This document shows positions 2,355-27,897 of a stretch of DNA of 64,000 nucleotides, piece by piece. Positions within the stretch are counted from its first letter, which is position 1; each line of letters starts with the position of its first letter. The notes beneath the pieces are model-generated. The model was not told the origin of the DNA, made no database searches, and saw only the letters and a list, made by a program, of their open reading frames with translations. The DNA is from Vulcanimicrobiota bacterium (GTDB lineage: Bacteria; Vulcanimicrobiota; Vulcanimicrobiia; Vulcanimicrobiales; Vulcanimicrobiaceae). The stretch covers positions 186,001 to 250,000 of the forward strand of contig DAHUXH010000013.1 of NCBI GenBank assembly GCA_027307235.1, in the 5' to 3' direction. The translations under genes and the position numbers were made by a program.

Positions 2355-2356
2355 CG

Positions 2357-2462
2357 TAAGGAAGCGCTGATTTCCGCCAGGCCGTCGTTGCGGAGAGCCT
2401 CGTGTACCGTAGTACACTTCGGCTCTCCGCGCCTCGGCCTGACGAAAATCAGCGCTTCCTTA
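2357..2462 (-). repeat. Intergenic palindromic element, copy A (UNCG hairpin family)
   Basis: Imperfect 106-bp inverted repeat starting two bases after recX. Outer arms TAAGGAAGCGCTGATTT and its complement, a CAGGCC/GGCCTG stem, an inner GCGGAGAGCC/GGCTCTCCGC stem and the apical GTGTAC-CGTA-GTACAC. Read on the minus strand the apex is C(UACG)G, an ultrastable UNCG tetraloop, so I assign the minus orientation. Sister copies are at 15659, 20311, 20751 and 26775. It could act as a transcription end or mRNA-stabilising hairpin, or be a REP-like/MITE element. Confidence 0.9.
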
Positions 2463-2499
2463 TGTCCATTGGGGCGGGCGTTACGGGCATAACTGCGTC

Positions 2500-15641: not shown

Positions 15642-15658
15642 AACCATTCGGAGCACGA

Positions 15659-15762
15659 GGGAAAGGCCTGATTCTCGTCAGGCCGAGGCGCGGTGGGGCG
15701 ACGTGTACTACGGTACACGAGCCCCTCCGCAACGAAGGCCTGGCGACAATCAGGACTTTCCC
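15659..15762 (+). repeat. Intergenic palindromic element, copy B (UNCG hairpin family)
   Basis: 104-bp imperfect palindrome after trpG, opposite in orientation to copy A: the plus strand carries the apex GTGTAC-TACG-GTACAC, a C(UACG)G tetraloop. Outer arms GGGAAAGGCCTGATT and complement differ from copy A, and the inner stem is GCGGTGGGGC/GCCCCTCCGC (one mismatch) instead of GCGGAGAGCC/GGCTCTCCGC, so several changes are compensated. The internal loops GAGGC and AACGAA are unchanged. The putative -35 of the fliK promoter begins at the next base. Confidence 0.9.
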
Positions 15763-15790
15763 TAACTTTGGGCGAGGTGGTGGCCGATGA
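15763..15790 (+). promoter_or_regulatory. Putative sigma-28 (FliA-type) promoter for fliK operon
   Basis: TAACTTTG at 15763-15770, a 12-base spacer and GCCGATGA at 15783-15790; the -10 matches the flagellar consensus GCCGATAA in 7 of 8 positions. It lies 60 bp before the fliK start and directly after repeat copy B. The same TAA-rich -35, 12-base spacer and CCGA -10 recur before motA and cheY, which strengthens the call. The usual spacer for this consensus is 11. Confidence 0.45.
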
Positions 15791-15849
15791 TCCTTGGGTA
15801 GGGCATCGTATGCCCTGTTCACTCATGGAAGGGAGGTGAGAAGAAAACA

Positions 15850-17448
15850 GTGAGTTCCATACCCATAGTGATCGGCGCGCTCATACCCGATTCGGCCGGT
15901 CCCACCACCACCTCGCAGGCGAGTCGTCCTCTTGGGGACGCGCGTTCCGGCGACGTGATCGGCGGACTGTTCGGATCGATGCTGACGGCGCAGCTGGCCG
16001 TCCCCGTGGCAATGCCGCTGGCAGTGCCCGGCGCGGCAGCGAGCGCACAGCCGGTCGGAACCCTGGTCGATCGGCTCGCGAACCAGATCGCGGACGCCCT
16101 CCAACGGTTGCTCCCGGCCGCGGCCGCTGCACCCGGCGGACGGTCCAAACTGGTCGCGATGATCACCAAGGCTCTTTCCCCACCCGGTCAAGGACCACCG
16201 AAACCAGGCTCTCTGGTGCAACGGCTCGCGGCAGTGATCCGAAGTATCGAGAGGGCACCAACCAGTATCCCAGGGCAGCAGAACGATATCGCGGGACACC
16301 TCTTGGACGCCAACTCGGCGAAAGAACTCCCGGCCCGGCAAGAAACAGCAGCGCAGACGTCATCGGACGCCGGCGCGGTTGCGCTTGCCCGGGAATTGAT
16401 CGCTCAGGCAGCAACGCTTCCTGCGGCGGCGATGACGCAGCCGGCCGTTCCCAATGCGGGGGCGACCAGTCGTGAGAACACGCCAAACACCGCTGTCCCA
16501 TCCAACGCCGATGCTGCCAGCGCGCAGCTCATCGGCGCGCTCCTCAACGCCCAGCCGGCGCACGCTTCGCCGGGAATACCCCCGCCGCAACCGGCGACCG
16601 CTGCACCGGGCAGCGCGGACGCGCCGCCGCCGATCGTTTCGGCGGGGTCGTCGATCCAAGCCAGCGACGTGCTGGCGCGGGTTCTCGCTCGGGCAGTTGC
16701 ATTCGATCAACGCCAAAACGGTTCGGGCGTCGCATCGCCGTCCTCGCAGAGCGGTCCGCCGCTTACGCAGGACGCGGTCTTCGCACGGCTCGCCGCGGCA
16801 ATCGCCAACGCCGGCTCGTCCGGTTCGCAAGGCGGCTCCGCCTTCGACCAGTCGGCCACGCACGGCGATTCGAGCGATCTGCTCGGGTCGCGTCAACCGT
16901 CCACGTCAACGACGTCGCTTGCGCAAACCGGCTCCGCACTCGCGGGTCCGAATTTCGTGCAAACGCTGTCGTCGACACAACTTCCCAACTCGATCCCATC
17001 GTACACACACGGCGGCGATCCGAACGCGATCGTCGATCAAGTCCTCAAAGGCTTGGTCGTGCGAAGCGACGGCACATCGTCGCAGGTCAGCATCCGGCTG
17101 GTTCCCGACCATCTCGGTGAGGTTTCCGTGAAGCTCACCGTCGACGGCGGAACGGTCAACGCCAGCATCGTTGCTCAGAACGGCAGCGTTCGCGACACGT
17201 TGGTCGCCAATCAACAACACCTGGCTCGTGCGCTCGCAGACTCCGGATTGACGCTCGGCGGCTTTTCGGTCGACGTCTCGGGCGGCAACGCGGGCCAATC
17301 GAACGAACGCTTCGCGCGTCCAAAACCGTCTTCGCGTCAACACTCAGTCGATGCGAATGCCGACGGCACGCAGGCGATCGTCAACACCGCGTTCGGACCA
17401 CCGCTCTTGGGCGGCGCGAACGCGAGTCTCTTCAGTTATCTCGCATAG
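15850..17448 (+). CDS. fliK: Flagellar hook-length control protein FliK
   Basis: Secreted ruler that ends hook growth and switches export specificity. 532 residues, GTG start after a strong ribosome site (GGGAGGTGAG). The first ~380 residues are low-complexity Ala/Pro/Ser/Gln, as usual. The C-terminal Flg_hook domain is at about 395-485: VSIRLVPDHLGEVSVKLTVD (family: L.P..LG.V.V.L) and LARALADSGLTLGGFSVDVS. It starts the hook gene set fliK-flgD-TIGR02530-flgE. Confidence 0.88.
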   Translation: MSSIPIVIGALIPDSAGPTTTSQASRPLGDARSGDVIGGLFGSMLTAQLAVPVAMPLAVPGAAASAQPVGTLVDRLANQIADALQRLLPAAAAAPGGRSKLVAMITKALSPPGQGPPKPGSLVQRLAAVIRSIERAPTSIPGQQNDIAGHLLDANSAKELPARQETAAQTSSDAGAVALARELIAQAATLPAAAMTQPAVPNAGATSRENTPNTAVPSNADAASAQLIGALLNAQPAHASPGIPPPQPATAAPGSADAPPPIVSAGSSIQASDVLARVLARAVAFDQRQNGSGVASPSSQSGPPLTQDAVFARLAAAIANAGSSGSQGGSAFDQSATHGDSSDLLGSRQPSTSTTSLAQTGSALAGPNFVQTLSSTQLPNSIPSYTHGGDPNAIVDQVLKGLVVRSDGTSSQVSIRLVPDHLGEVSVKLTVDGGTVNASIVAQNGSVRDTLVANQQHLARALADSGLTLGGFSVDVSGGNAGQSNERFARPKPSSRQHSVDANADGTQAIVNTAFGPPLLGGANASLFSYLA

Positions 17449-17457
17449 GAGAACAGC

Positions 17458-17949
17458 ATGGCGAGTCCAGTCCCCCCAACTGGAAATCCCCTGCCGATTC
17501 AGGGGCTGATCGGGAATTCACCCCAGAACCTCGGCGCAAACGCGCAGACTGGTGCGAATAGCCTGTCGGCGAACGATTTCCTGGGGTTATTGACGGCGGA
17601 ACTTGCGAATCAGGATCCGACCAAACCGGTCGACGACACGCAGTCGGTTGCGCAACTCGCGCAATTCTCCGCGCTCTCGGCGACCACGCAGCTCTCGGAC
17701 CAATTCGCGGCGTTCCAGTCGAACTTCTCAGTCCTGCAATCGACGTCTTTGGTTGGAAAGAACGTCACCGTCGTGACGTCCGATTCAAACGGCAAGACAT
17801 CGAATCTCAGCGGCACGGTCGCATCGATCAAGGTCCAGAGCGGCGTTCCGCTCTTCACGATGAACGATGCCAGCGGTAAGCCGATCGCCGATCAAAACGG
17901 CAAGCCGCAGCTCTTCGCGCTCTCGCAGATCGTCGGCGTCGGAGGCTAA
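17458..17949 (+). CDS. flgD: Flagellar hook-assembly scaffold FlgD
   Basis: Hook cap that guides polymerisation of FlgE. 163 residues. The conserved N-terminal region is SANDFLGLLTAELANQDPTKP, then QSVAQLAQFSALSATTQL, followed by a VGKNVTV segment of the short beta domain. It lacks the longer C-terminal tudor/FNIII part of enterobacterial FlgD, a common short form. Nine bases separate it from fliK, and the next gene begins right after its stop. Confidence 0.92.
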   Translation: MASPVPPTGNPLPIQGLIGNSPQNLGANAQTGANSLSANDFLGLLTAELANQDPTKPVDDTQSVAQLAQFSALSATTQLSDQFAAFQSNFSVLQSTSLVGKNVTVVTSDSNGKTSNLSGTVASIKVQSGVPLFTMNDASGKPIADQNGKPQLFALSQIVGVGG

Positions 17950-18348
17950 ATGGATACGCAGGACATCAACCGGGTATCACAATCGGTCATTCTGCCCGGA
18001 CCGGCTCCGGTCAAGGGAACGCCGGTTCAGATCCCGCCGGCTTCCGCTCCGAGTTTCCGTGAGGTACTCGAGCATGCCGGAACACCGTCGGGTACGCCGC
18101 TGCGTTTTTCGGCGCACGCACTCTCGCGCTTGCAATCACGCAACATCAGCCTGACCAACGCCGACGTCGCGCGCATGAACGAGATGGCCGACAAGGCGGC
18201 AGCCAAAGGTGCGAAACAGTCGCTCTTCATCATGAACAACGTCGCCATGGTGGTCAGCATCAAGAACCGCACCGTCATCACCGCGGTCGATCAAGACTCG
18301 ATGAAGGAGAACGTGTTCACCAACATCGACTCGGCGGCGATCATTTGA
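17950..18348 (+). CDS. Flagellar operon protein, TIGR02530 family
   Basis: 132-residue conserved flagellar protein of unknown molecular role, always found between flgD and flgE in Firmicutes-like operons. The family core is present: LRFSAHALSRLQSRNISLT, DKAAAKGAKQSLFIMNN and VVSIKNRTVITAVD, ending with VFTNIDSAAII. It is proposed to be a hook-assembly accessory or secreted factor; that is inference from position. The 96-bp gap before flgE contains GC-rich inverted repeats (around 18383-18420) and a ribosome site, nothing else visible. Confidence 0.88.
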   Translation: MDTQDINRVSQSVILPGPAPVKGTPVQIPPASAPSFREVLEHAGTPSGTPLRFSAHALSRLQSRNISLTNADVARMNEMADKAAAKGAKQSLFIMNNVAMVVSIKNRTVITAVDQDSMKENVFTNIDSAAII

Positions 18349-18444
18349 CTCAGCAACACTCGATCGGGGTGGACCGCATAGCGGGGCCCCGGCGCGGCGC
18401 CGAAAGAATGACGCGCCGCGAACGCCACGTGAAAGGTTAAAAGC

Positions 18445-20310
18445 ATGGCTTTCGATTCATTGTTCACGGGGATATCGGCACTCAACTCGTACCAGAGTTG
18501 GATCGATTCCATCTCGAACAACATCGCAAACGTTGACACGACCGGCTTCAAGGGCCAGCGTATGACGTTTGCCGACTTGATTTATCAACAGCTCGGATTC
18601 GCTTCGGGCGCCACGCAGACGCGCGGCGGCATCAATCCGCAGCAGCTCGGTCTGGGCGTGAAGGTCAACACGGTTGACACAGTCTTCGCGCAAGGCGGCC
18701 TTCAAACGACCGGAATCAACACCGACGTCGCGCTCAACGGTGACGGGTTCTTCATCTTGCGCAACACCGACGGCAGCGGCATTCCGGCGTACACGCGCGA
18801 CGGTGCGTTCACGCTGAACTCGCAAGGCCTGCTGATCGATCCGGCGACGGGTCTCTCCGTGCAGGGCTTCCAGGCCAACGCGGCTGGTGTGGTCACGCAG
18901 TCGGGCCTTCCCGGCAACATCACGATTCCGCTGGGGTTGACCGAACAGGCAACCGGCACGGGCTTCGGCGCGAAGATCGGACCGAACTCGAACGACAAAG
19001 TGTTCGATATGCAGTTGGGCGGCAATCTGGACCAGACGCAATGGTCGCAGGCCTTCCTCAACAGCGTCGGCGCGTCGGGAACCGCAGGCACGCCGTTCAC
19101 CGTCTCGACCACGATCATCGATTCGCTCGGCGTTTCGCACCAGGCGAAACTGACCTACACGCCCGATGCCACTGGTGCGGTGGCGGCGACGCAGGTGACG
19201 ACCAACGCGGCACTGGTCACAGGCAATCTGCTCAACGGCGTCGTGCTCAACCAAGGCACGAAGTTCAACGGCACGATCACGACGACGGTCGACAATCCTG
19301 CCGACGGATTCGCTACCGTGACCGACGGCTCGACGACGATCAAGAACGTGGTGCCCGGGCAGCAGATCAATCTCGACGGCGTTCAGTTCACGGTCGGCAC
19401 GTTCGTCGCGGCCGATGCCGGTAAGACGGCCAATATCGTGGTCACACCGGCGCAGAGCGGCTTGCCGGCGCAGGTCGACGACGCCAACGGTGTGGCGCAT
19501 GCGCCCGCCACGCGCTGGAAGGTGTCGGTGAGCTTCGACGACGGCACCACCTTCCAAAATCTCAAGACCGCCGGCACGATCAGCGCGGCCAATGTCGTCA
19601 CGGCACCCACCTTCGGGTCGTCGTCATCCGGAGACCTCGGGTATGCCTACTTCGACCAGAACGGCCAGTTCATCAACACGTCGTCGGTCGTGACCTCGGC
19701 CAGCGCCAACGGCATCACCGCCAACGCGCCCGGCTTGCTTCACGCCACCGGCCAACAGCCGGGGACGCAGGCCGCAGATGAACTCGACATCCTGTCCTGG
19801 GGACCCGGCGCGGGGAATGGTGCGACCGCTCCGACCGGTGCGGGCGCTCCGGCGACCGGGCCGATCGGCCTCGATTTCTCGAACAACGCGAGCCTTGCGT
19901 CCGGCTACACCGCGAGCGTCATCAATCAGAACGGCTTCGGCGCCGGGACGCTCTCAAACATCACGATCGGCCAAGACGGAACGATCACCGGCGCATTCAC
20001 GAACGGCCAAGACCGCACCCTCGCGCAACTGGCCGTCGCTACGTTCCAGAACGAGGGCGGGCTCAGCCGCGTCGGCGGCAATTCGTTCCAGCAGACGGCC
20101 GCATCCGGCTTGGCGCAGGTCGGCGTGGCCGCGCAAGGCCGGTTCGGGTCGATCGTCTCGGGCGCGCTCGAGCAGTCCAACGTCTCGCTCTCCCAGGAGT
20201 TCACCAACCTGATCTCCGCGCAGCGCGCGTTCGAAGCGAACACGCGCGGCATCGAGACCGCAGACCAAAATCTGCAAACGATCATCCACATCAACGCCAC
20301 CGAAAACTAG
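18445..20310 (+). CDS. flgE: Flagellar hook protein FlgE
   Basis: Subunit of the hook. 621 residues, longer than the ~400 of enterobacteria, with the extra length in the outer D2-like domains (about 170-470). The N-terminal rod/hook signature is LFTGISALNSYQSWIDSISNN with IANVDTTGFKGQR, followed by DVALNGDGFFIL, and the C-terminal helix has QSNVSLSQEFTNLISAQRAFEANTR. It is preceded by AAAGG 10 bp before ATG 18445. The stop codon directly touches repeat copy C. Confidence 0.95.
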   Translation: MAFDSLFTGISALNSYQSWIDSISNNIANVDTTGFKGQRMTFADLIYQQLGFASGATQTRGGINPQQLGLGVKVNTVDTVFAQGGLQTTGINTDVALNGDGFFILRNTDGSGIPAYTRDGAFTLNSQGLLIDPATGLSVQGFQANAAGVVTQSGLPGNITIPLGLTEQATGTGFGAKIGPNSNDKVFDMQLGGNLDQTQWSQAFLNSVGASGTAGTPFTVSTTIIDSLGVSHQAKLTYTPDATGAVAATQVTTNAALVTGNLLNGVVLNQGTKFNGTITTTVDNPADGFATVTDGSTTIKNVVPGQQINLDGVQFTVGTFVAADAGKTANIVVTPAQSGLPAQVDDANGVAHAPATRWKVSVSFDDGTTFQNLKTAGTISAANVVTAPTFGSSSSGDLGYAYFDQNGQFINTSSVVTSASANGITANAPGLLHATGQQPGTQAADELDILSWGPGAGNGATAPTGAGAPATGPIGLDFSNNASLASGYTASVINQNGFGAGTLSNITIGQDGTITGAFTNGQDRTLAQLAVATFQNEGGLSRVGGNSFQQTAASGLAQVGVAAQGRFGSIVSGALEQSNVSLSQEFTNLISAQRAFEANTRGIETADQNLQTIIHINATEN

Positions 20311-20412
20311 GAAAAGCGCTGATTTCCGCCGGGGCTTCGTTGCGGAGAGGCTCGTGTACCGTAGTACACTTAGCCTCTCCGCGCCTCGCCCCGACGAAAA
20401 TCAGCGCTTTTC
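20311..20412 (-). repeat. Intergenic palindromic element, copy C (UNCG hairpin family)
   Basis: 102-bp palindrome beginning at the base after the flgE stop. Apex GTGTAC-CGTA-GTACAC, so the UACG tetraloop form is on the minus strand as in copy A. The middle stem is CGGGGC/GCCCCG and the inner stem GCGGAGAGGC/GCCTCTCCGC, each changed on both arms relative to copies A, D and E. A fragment of the right arm (CGTCGAAAATCAGCGCT, 20417-20433) is repeated just downstream. Confidence 0.9.
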
Positions 20413-20452
20413 CACACGTCGAAAATCAGCGCTAGTCCAGGGTTCACTTATG

Positions 20453-20708: not shown

Positions 20709-20750
20709 CCCAAGCCTCAGTAGCCGCCCTAGCGAAAAGATCCCCAAGCC

Positions 20751-20856
20751 CTTAGGACGTCTATTTTCCGTCAGGCCGAGGCGCGGAGAGCCGAAGTGTA
20801 CTACGGTACACGAGGCTCTCCGCAACGAAGGCCTGGCGGAAAAGAGACATCCTAAG
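20751..20856 (+). repeat. Intergenic palindromic element, copy D (UNCG hairpin family)
   Basis: 106-bp palindrome 42 bp after flbD, plus orientation with apex C(TACG)G. Outer arms CTTAGGACGTCTATTTTCC and complement are unique to this copy, while the core (GTCAGGCCGAGGCGCGGAG and onwards) is identical to copies A and E. Part of the right arm is duplicated immediately downstream. Confidence 0.92.
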
Positions 20857-20890
20857 CAACGAAGGCGTGGCGGAAAAGAGACATCCTAAG
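20857..20890 (+). repeat. Tandem duplication of the right arm of copy D
   Basis: 34 bp repeating 20823-20856 with one substitution (AAGGCGTGGCGG versus AAGGCCTGGCGG). The substitution breaks the GGCC pairing. The last bases (CTAAG) overlap the proposed motA -35, so the duplication may have supplied part of that promoter. Confidence 0.85.
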
Positions 20891-26729: not shown

Positions 26730-26774
26730 CCCACTCCACCACGAGGTAAAAACTTCAGCTCAGCCCCCACCTAT

Positions 26775-26878
26775 TAGGAAGTCGCGGTTTGCGTCAGGCC
26801 GAGGCGCGGAGAGCCGAAGTGTACTTCGGTACACGAGGCTCTCCGCAACGAAGGCCTGGCGCAAATCCCCGGCTTCCC
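26775..26878 (+). repeat. Intergenic palindromic element, copy E (UNCG hairpin family)
   Basis: About 104-bp palindrome between the convergent ends of fliR and the propeller lipoprotein gene. The core is identical to copy D except at the apex: GTGTAC-TTCG-GTACAC (26819-26834), so UACG has become UUCG, another member of the stable cUNCGg loops. Outer arms (GGAAGTCGCGGTTTGCG and partner) are less well paired than in the other copies. It ends two bases from the stop of the minus-strand gene. Confidence 0.9.
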
Positions 26879-26880
26879 CG

Positions 26881-27897
26881 CTAGAAGTAGGTGAATTGGC
26901 CGATCGCGTTGCCCGTCGTCTCGGTGAAGTACAGGCGCTGATCGAGACCGATGGTGAGCGCGGTCGCGCCGCTGCCGGCGGTCGGAATGGTCGACAGATG
27001 GGTGACGGTGTTGCTGGTCACGTTGAATTGCAGAATCGCATTGGCGCCCGAGTCGGCGATATAGAAGTTGCCATCGGCGCCGCGGACGAGTCCGAGCGGC
27101 GTCACCGCTCCCGCGAGCGAGTAGTCCGTCGCGGTGCCGCCCACGGTCATGCGCGCGATTTTCTTGGCGCCGGTTTCGACGAACCACAGCGCGTTGTCGC
27201 TGCCGTTGACGATGAAGATCGGATCGGCGTTCGCCGTTGGAGTGGGAAACTCGACGATGCCGGGCGTCGCGGCCGTCGCGGTCGGTGCGATGCGGCCGAC
27301 CTTCGAAGCGTTCGCCTCGGTGAACCACAGATTTCCGTCTTGGCCGGTTGTGATGTCGGCTGGTCCGGCGTTTGCCGTCGGGATCGCGAACTCGGTGAGC
27401 GTGCCGTTGGCGATGCGCCCGATCAGATTGGCGCTCTGCTCGGTGAACCATAGGTTGCCGTCGGGTCCGACGGTGATACCGCCGGGATTGGACGCCGGCG
27501 AGGTGAGGGCGAAACTGGTGAAGAGCTTCGTCACGGGATTGTACTCGCCGATCGCTCCCGCGCCGCTCTCGGTGAACCACAGGTTGCCGTCGGCGGTGCG
27601 GGTGATGCCGCTTGGGGCCGCTCCGCCGGTTGGGATCACGGCCTGCGTGATCGACCCCGTGCTGGTGAGTTGCCCGAGCAGATTGGCGCCTCGTTCCGTG
27701 AACCACAGCGTTCCGTCGGGCGCACTGACGATCACCGCCGGCGCCGAGTTGAGCTGCGGGAGCGGGAACTCGGCCGCGACGGCGGGCGGGTTGGGCGGCG
27801 GGGCGGTGGGCGTCGCGTTGACCAGGGTGCCCTTACATGCCGAAAGCATGGCGGCTCCGAGACCAAGGGCGATGACCAACCTGGGGGTACGATTCAC
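26881..27897 (-). CDS. Lipoprotein with seven-bladed Vgb-like beta-propeller
   Basis: 338 residues. N-terminal lipobox LGLGAAMLSACKG predicts lipid anchoring at Cys21, then a Pro/Ala linker and seven ~42-residue blades of the form DGNLWFTE-x-GANxIGRI-x-TEF-x-GPxDITxG, the virginiamycin B lyase (streptogramin lyase) fold. Streptogramin lyases need specific His/Glu residues; I could not confirm them, and the family is mostly of unknown function, so antibiotic resistance should not be assumed. It interrupts the flagellar genes between fliR and flhB on the opposite strand, and a longer homologue is at 41893. Confidence 0.85.
   Translation of the reverse strand: MNRTPRLVIALGLGAAMLSACKGTLVNATPTAPPPNPPAVAAEFPLPQLNSAPAVIVSAPDGTLWFTERGANLLGQLTSTGSITQAVIPTGGAAPSGITRTADGNLWFTESGAGAIGEYNPVTKLFTSFALTSPASNPGGITVGPDGNLWFTEQSANLIGRIANGTLTEFAIPTANAGPADITTGQDGNLWFTEANASKVGRIAPTATAATPGIVEFPTPTANADPIFIVNGSDNALWFVETGAKKIARMTVGGTATDYSLAGAVTPLGLVRGADGNFYIADSGANAILQFNVTSNTVTHLSTIPTAGSGATALTIGLDQRLYFTETTGNAIGQFTYF

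Follow-up and report, generated by a model that had tools for sequence, protein, structure and literature searches.

The palindromes found in a 64-kb stretch of DNA from a Candidatus Eremiobacterota genome (hereafter the window) are probably copies of a mobile element of this phylum that is non-autonomous and MITE-like, targets CTAG and has the fold of one strand under selection. The copies form a family that is spread through the phylum; their base pairs covary, one strand is preferred, they are positioned at stop codons, and one clean insertion can be set beside its empty sites. Small palindromic repeats are common in bacteria and are usually treated as sequence families or as by-products of transposition. 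The present element combines mobility with phylum-wide base-pair covariation, and its orthologous copies, empty sites and single-copy genomes allow comparison, so that one can test whether it is the fold for which such repeats are retained, which strand matters and who benefits.

The window contains five copies (table 1); its genes were called with a simple codon-usage finder trained on the window itself. Copies B, C and D fold as RNA at −70.6 to −87 kcal/mol, with z of −10.7 to −15 against dinucleotide shuffles, and the tip motif has 10 matches in the window against 0.19 expected, both strands being counted. An earlier sequence-only reading, placed at 15659-20412 and so spanning copies B and C only, had described the stems of all five. 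On re-reading the sequences, the inner and middle stems are as it gave them (the middle stem being CAGGCC/GGCCTG, and CGGGGC/GCCCCG in C), with a T.T mismatch at 38.70 in the inner stem of copy B. It also had each outer arm pairing with its own partner; the arms are complementary, but in copies E and B the pairing is imperfect, with gaps or mismatches.

Table 1. Copies of the element in the window, with associated repeats and neighbouring genes.
Feature	Position	Strand	Context
Copy A	2356..2463	- (better-folding strand)	Covariance-model match G000:C10:188356-188463:-, top score in genome; neighbouring + strand gene has its stop codon TAA (2352-2354) at the base of the arm
Copy B	15657..15764	+	Flanked by pabA-like gene (ends 15641) and next + strand gene (starts 15850; presumably fliK-like, by position)
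Copy C	20308..20415	-	Begins at flgE stop codon TAG (20308-20310)
Partial second copy of copy C distal arm	20417..20439	+	Direct repeat family D3
Copy D	20750..20857	+	Flanked by 63-aa gene and motA-like gene
Tandem duplication of copy D right arm	20856..20889	+	Direct repeat family D2, 97%
Copy E	26773..26881	+	TTCG loop; right-arm base touches stop codon of - strand gene (CTA on + strand, 26881-26883)

The whole element is an inverted repeat of 106-165 bp without coding sequence, with ends TAGG...CCTA. On its favoured strand it forms a hairpin of about 106 nt, in which an outer stem of about 26 bp leads to a lower internal loop (5′ NAGG[C/A], 3′ [A/G]ACGA) whose invariant bases read A.G, G-C, then G.A beside C.A or A.G. 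Above this loop come a 10-bp middle stem, a 3x2 internal loop (GAA/GA) and a tip composed of a 6-bp stem and a 4-nt loop, TNNG being the commonest shared form. The internal-loop bases are invariant or nearly so across genera and the stem sequence is almost free. At 33·75 in the lower loop C·A swaps with A·G, an exchange that, in our structural reading, we take to fit a tandem sheared G·A motif. The sequence-only reading had held that changes at the apex stay within UNCG. Genome-wide this fails, with TAAG, TCTG, TATG, TTTG, TGAG and CATG all present in the same genome; among its 67 collected copies the loops are TACG in 39, TAAG in 5, TCTG in 5, TATG in 4 and others in the remainder, so that it is by chance that the five window copies show UNCG alone.

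The covariance model finds about 70 copies in the window's genome. The 67 distinct copies collected include many that were recognised by structure and not by the conserved tip, and exclude two (L005 and L043) at which contigs of this genome end inside the hairpin, their symmetric loops resembling assembly fold-back artefacts; these were left out as probable artefacts. FliI relatives at 75-87% identity are Candidatus Eremiobacterota. With a covariance model built from several genera, the element was found order-wide in 74 of 101 genomes and 30 of 39 genera, and two distant families of the phylum carry it with the same core; it was not detected in a same-class family sampled with a narrower, first covariance model. 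Genera differ in copy number, from 0 to about 70, and many genomes have a single copy. Exact 20-mers of the element have no match among 84,980 species genomes outside near relatives. Rfam gave no match in the window at gathering score; four relatives yielded just two weak ones, which lie at other places in the loci or score far below the gathering threshold. Our search of the literature on Eremiobacterota found no relevant account of such repeats.

Selection for structure, as opposed to recent copying alone, had been proposed from the five window copies, and a larger alignment bears it out. The test was tree-aware and used our own R-scape-style script (not R-scape), in which a G-test with average-product correction is compared with null alignments in which the inferred substitutions are placed anew on a FastTree tree. 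Across 76 distinct copies, 30 of the 43 pairs covary significantly at E<0.05 under this tree-based null, a signal that exceeds phylogeny, and the only significant pair outside the drawn structure is the non-canonical C·A/A·G at 33·75 in the internal loop. The signal from the window's genome alone (58 gapless copies) is weaker, with three pairs significant and none outside the structure; its summed covariation is greater than in all 500 shuffles and in every slid control. A set of 32 copies, 23 of them from other genera, has 91.6% of its cells paired versus 61% when shuffled, changes on both sides in 38 of 43 pairs, and a covariation score of 0.770 versus 0.200 for shuffled and 0.12-0.163 for slid alignments. 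The element being mobile, recent copying occurs as well.

The same conclusion can be drawn at orthologous sites, where the hairpins come from low-copy and single-copy genomes. Hairpins stand after rpsD and before rpoA in three genera, after tuf and before rpsJ in three genera, between a gene of 117 aa and pabB in four congeneric species, and downstream of a gene of 285 aa in six species of another genus (rpsD, rpoA, tuf, rpsJ and pabB being presumed identities, named from their sequences). Between two species at the pabB site (L199 vs L200) there are four double compensations and none of the 18 unpaired columns has changed, and between two genera at rpsD-rpoA 14 pairs have changed on both sides; pairs with both partners altered also occur at tuf-rpsJ. 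Some gene ends have thus retained the hairpin for a long time. The fold, not the sequence, is what evolution preserves. The hairpins in ribosomal operons (rpsD-rpoA and tuf-rpsJ; L054, L172, L211, L058, L186 and L222) occur in several genera and are sometimes the sole detected copy.

Both strands fold strongly, and folding energy is lower on the favoured strand in 94 of 99 copies. On that strand G.T outnumbers A.C by 113 to 46 in relatives and by 28 to 21 in the window's genome, and among one-sided changes G.T exceeds A.C by 67 to 21 on one strand (p about 9e-7). These counts bear on the possibility, already raised by the sequence-only reading, that complementarity is maintained by conversion between the arms. 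In its strict form, arm-to-arm copying alone, through template switching at a quasi-palindrome in replication, would keep the arms paired around a functionless fold, which we consider quite unlikely. Copying probably does contribute, because some arms have been wholly replaced yet are complementary (L010, L036, L305 and L307 have wholly different outer arms and an otherwise standard core) and because transversions make up over half of the double changes (double transversions to double transitions, 83 to 69 in the window's genome and 239 to 141 overall); arms are also duplicated beside several copies, with the junction at the loop in four. It is not the whole cause, because the loops are unpaired in every copy, fixed wobbles persist and one-sided changes favour G.T. 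Copying alone would erase the internal loops too, but across genera the loop bases hardly vary, if at all; it also sits poorly with wobbles that recur in fixed positions (U.G at 22.87 and G.U at 47.62), with a strand bias in one-sided changes, with covariation of the non-canonical pair 33.75, and with one inner-stem pair that is G.T, G-C or A-T in species of one genus, as in stepwise change. We conclude that selection on the fold is needed.

A single insertion was matched to empty sites, and it lies outside the window's genus; the window's genome itself yielded no close relative for such a comparison. Genera g20 and g37 have longer arms and numerous copies that are at least 92% identical, with ends TA-GGAGGCTGTC...GACAGCCTCC-TA. 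One copy of 161 bp in G019 is absent from the sister species G066 and G072. On one side its flank is 97% identical to that of G072 and 95% to that of G066, and on the other side the values are 89% and 85%, respectively. Both sister species carry the empty site GAGATCGCT-CTAG-CGGCGC (GCT-CTAG-CGG). In the filled site the insert is bordered by TTAG at one end and CTAG at the other, which we interpret as a duplication of CTAG followed by one later base change. The CTAG of the G019 site includes the stop codon of the adjacent gene. The element would thus insert at CTAG, usually one that holds a gene's TAG stop codon, with duplication of 4 bp. Hairpins would start at stop codons because the target CTAG often contains a TAG stop codon, and the stop codon would survive insertion because the 4 bp are duplicated. 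In the window's genome, the right arm contains the stop codon of an opposing gene in 48 of the 67 copies, and in 31 that stop is TAG.

Several features of the element recall known repeats. Like the bacterial MITEs RUP, ERIC and Correia (reviewed in PMC10969869; RUP and BOX in PMC3049150), it is a palindrome of roughly 100-200 bp without coding capacity, is intergenic and mostly 3′ of genes, varies in copy number across strains and species, and duplicates its target on insertion. Unlike in those MITEs, the arms are not conserved in sequence between copies and genera, the internal loops and the pairing being conserved instead, and conservation across a phylum and a target at CTAG and the stop codon also set it apart. 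With REP elements, that is, the GTAG and CGTC repeats that accompany RAYT transposases (PMC3733652, PMC2817692, PMC8266576), it shares palindromes lying downstream, between convergent or tandem ORFs, termini that often give a TAG stop, and G.T pairs in the stems. REPs are 20-40 bp long and tied to Y1 transposases, whereas the elements here are 106-165 bp long, make a 4-bp duplication and occur in a genome without a Y1 gene (PF01797, 0 matches in the window's genome); no unpaired GTAG or CGTC tag of the REP type, set on a 20-40 bp hairpin, is invariant in the hairpin of about 106 nt.

Integron attC sites conserve structure with sequence left free, prefer one strand and sit beside a stop codon, and the present element resembles them in that the fold of one strand is conserved over sequence and is placed at a stop codon. 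The element could then be a recombination site of the attC or REP kind, in which a tyrosine or Y1 recombinase acts on one strand, folded as single-stranded DNA, and the TAG stop codons that GTAG REP ends often supply (PMC3733652) count in its favour. We regard this as very improbable. Against it stand the missing Y1 transposase and the 4-bp duplication on insertion. The R and L boxes of attC were not found: paired AAC/GTT boxes are not seen, and the conserved AAC (75-77) faces GGC and not GTT. Cassette arrays are not seen either, and the outer stem is far longer. We know of no tyrosine or Y1 recombinase that duplicates 4 bp on insertion. An attC-like site was also considered as an account of a fold lying antisense to the adjacent gene, and was dropped on the same grounds, the boxes and the duplication.

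A host function in RNA is unlikely, if less so than a recombination site. Here the hairpin in the mRNA would mark or protect the 3′ end of the upstream cistron, as a block to decay, a terminator or an RNase III site, and mobile copies would be retained for that job. The position of the copies agrees with this, nearly all of them lying downstream of genes (35 convergent, 28 tandem and 1 divergent, n=67), as do the orthologous ribosomal-operon sites, the strong folding of both strands and the fact that Correia and ERIC elements alter mRNA processing (PMC10969869). However, the favoured fold is opposite to the strand of the adjacent gene in 48 of 67 copies in the window's genome and 40 of 58 in relatives, and on the same strand in other lineages; an early view that the fold always runs antisense to its neighbouring gene was dropped, since several lineages have the opposite arrangement. 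Both a T-rich tract after the hairpin and an upstream motif are absent: the T fraction is about 0.23 in the first 12 nt past the arm on the favoured strand, as against the T tract of an intrinsic terminator, and no promoter-like or terminator-like flanks are conserved. The range in copy number between genera also speaks against a host role.

For the MITE-like element that we favour, a protein would read the fold on a single strand, as RNA or single-stranded DNA, and the pair of tandem G.A loops, spaced by one helical turn, would present it with a single binding face. Selection on that recognition, together with arm-to-arm copying, would keep the arms complementary as their sequences drift. The reader of the fold is most likely the machinery that moves the element, and a host protein acting on transcripts comes second; a part in the element's movement is likelier than one in host expression because the favoured strand lies with or against the adjacent gene according to lineage. 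A more specific version is put forward tentatively: a structure-addressed MITE that would rely for its spread on recognition of one folded strand, with its two tandem G.A loops, by a protein, whose arms are free so long as they pair, which, unlike attC and REP, duplicates its target, and which is kept at ribosomal and other operons in single-copy lineages.

Several points count against the MITE-like explanation. No transposase linked to the element was found in searches with PF01797 and PF01609, a single insertion, in another genus, was matched to empty sites, TA is retained at the mirror-image ends of only 15 of the 67 copies in the window's genome, double changes are mostly transversions, which arm-to-arm copying would fit as well, and the strand that faces the gene differs between lineages. 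Nor does a fold that is purely selfish account for compensation at orthologous sites in one-copy genomes, and this compensation is the main argument for a reader that serves host expression. As for the mover, a few IS4/IS5-type genes were found, and an IS4/IS5-type transposase was rejected for this part: the genes lack the element's ends, no match to those ends lies near PF01609 genes, and several genomes rich in copies do not have the genes at all. No pairs of element ends 0.7-3 kb apart were seen in G019, G066 or G042, and a pattern search for autonomous elements that share these ends returned hairpins of three lengths only and one end pair about 40 bp apart.

The form of the element varies at some loci. 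A longer variant (L250-L255, in G019 and G066) has an extra hairpin within the inner stem, and a shorter one (L256-L259) has the core partly or mostly deleted. At four loci of the window's genome (L007, L016, L021 and L024) the copy is followed by an extra right half, which starts precisely at the hairpin loop and has the arm sequence of that locus a second time; such duplication of half an element is recurrent. Elsewhere in the same genome (L012-L014, C10:72587-72842) three cores stand in tandem, 87 bp apart, with truncated arms in common.
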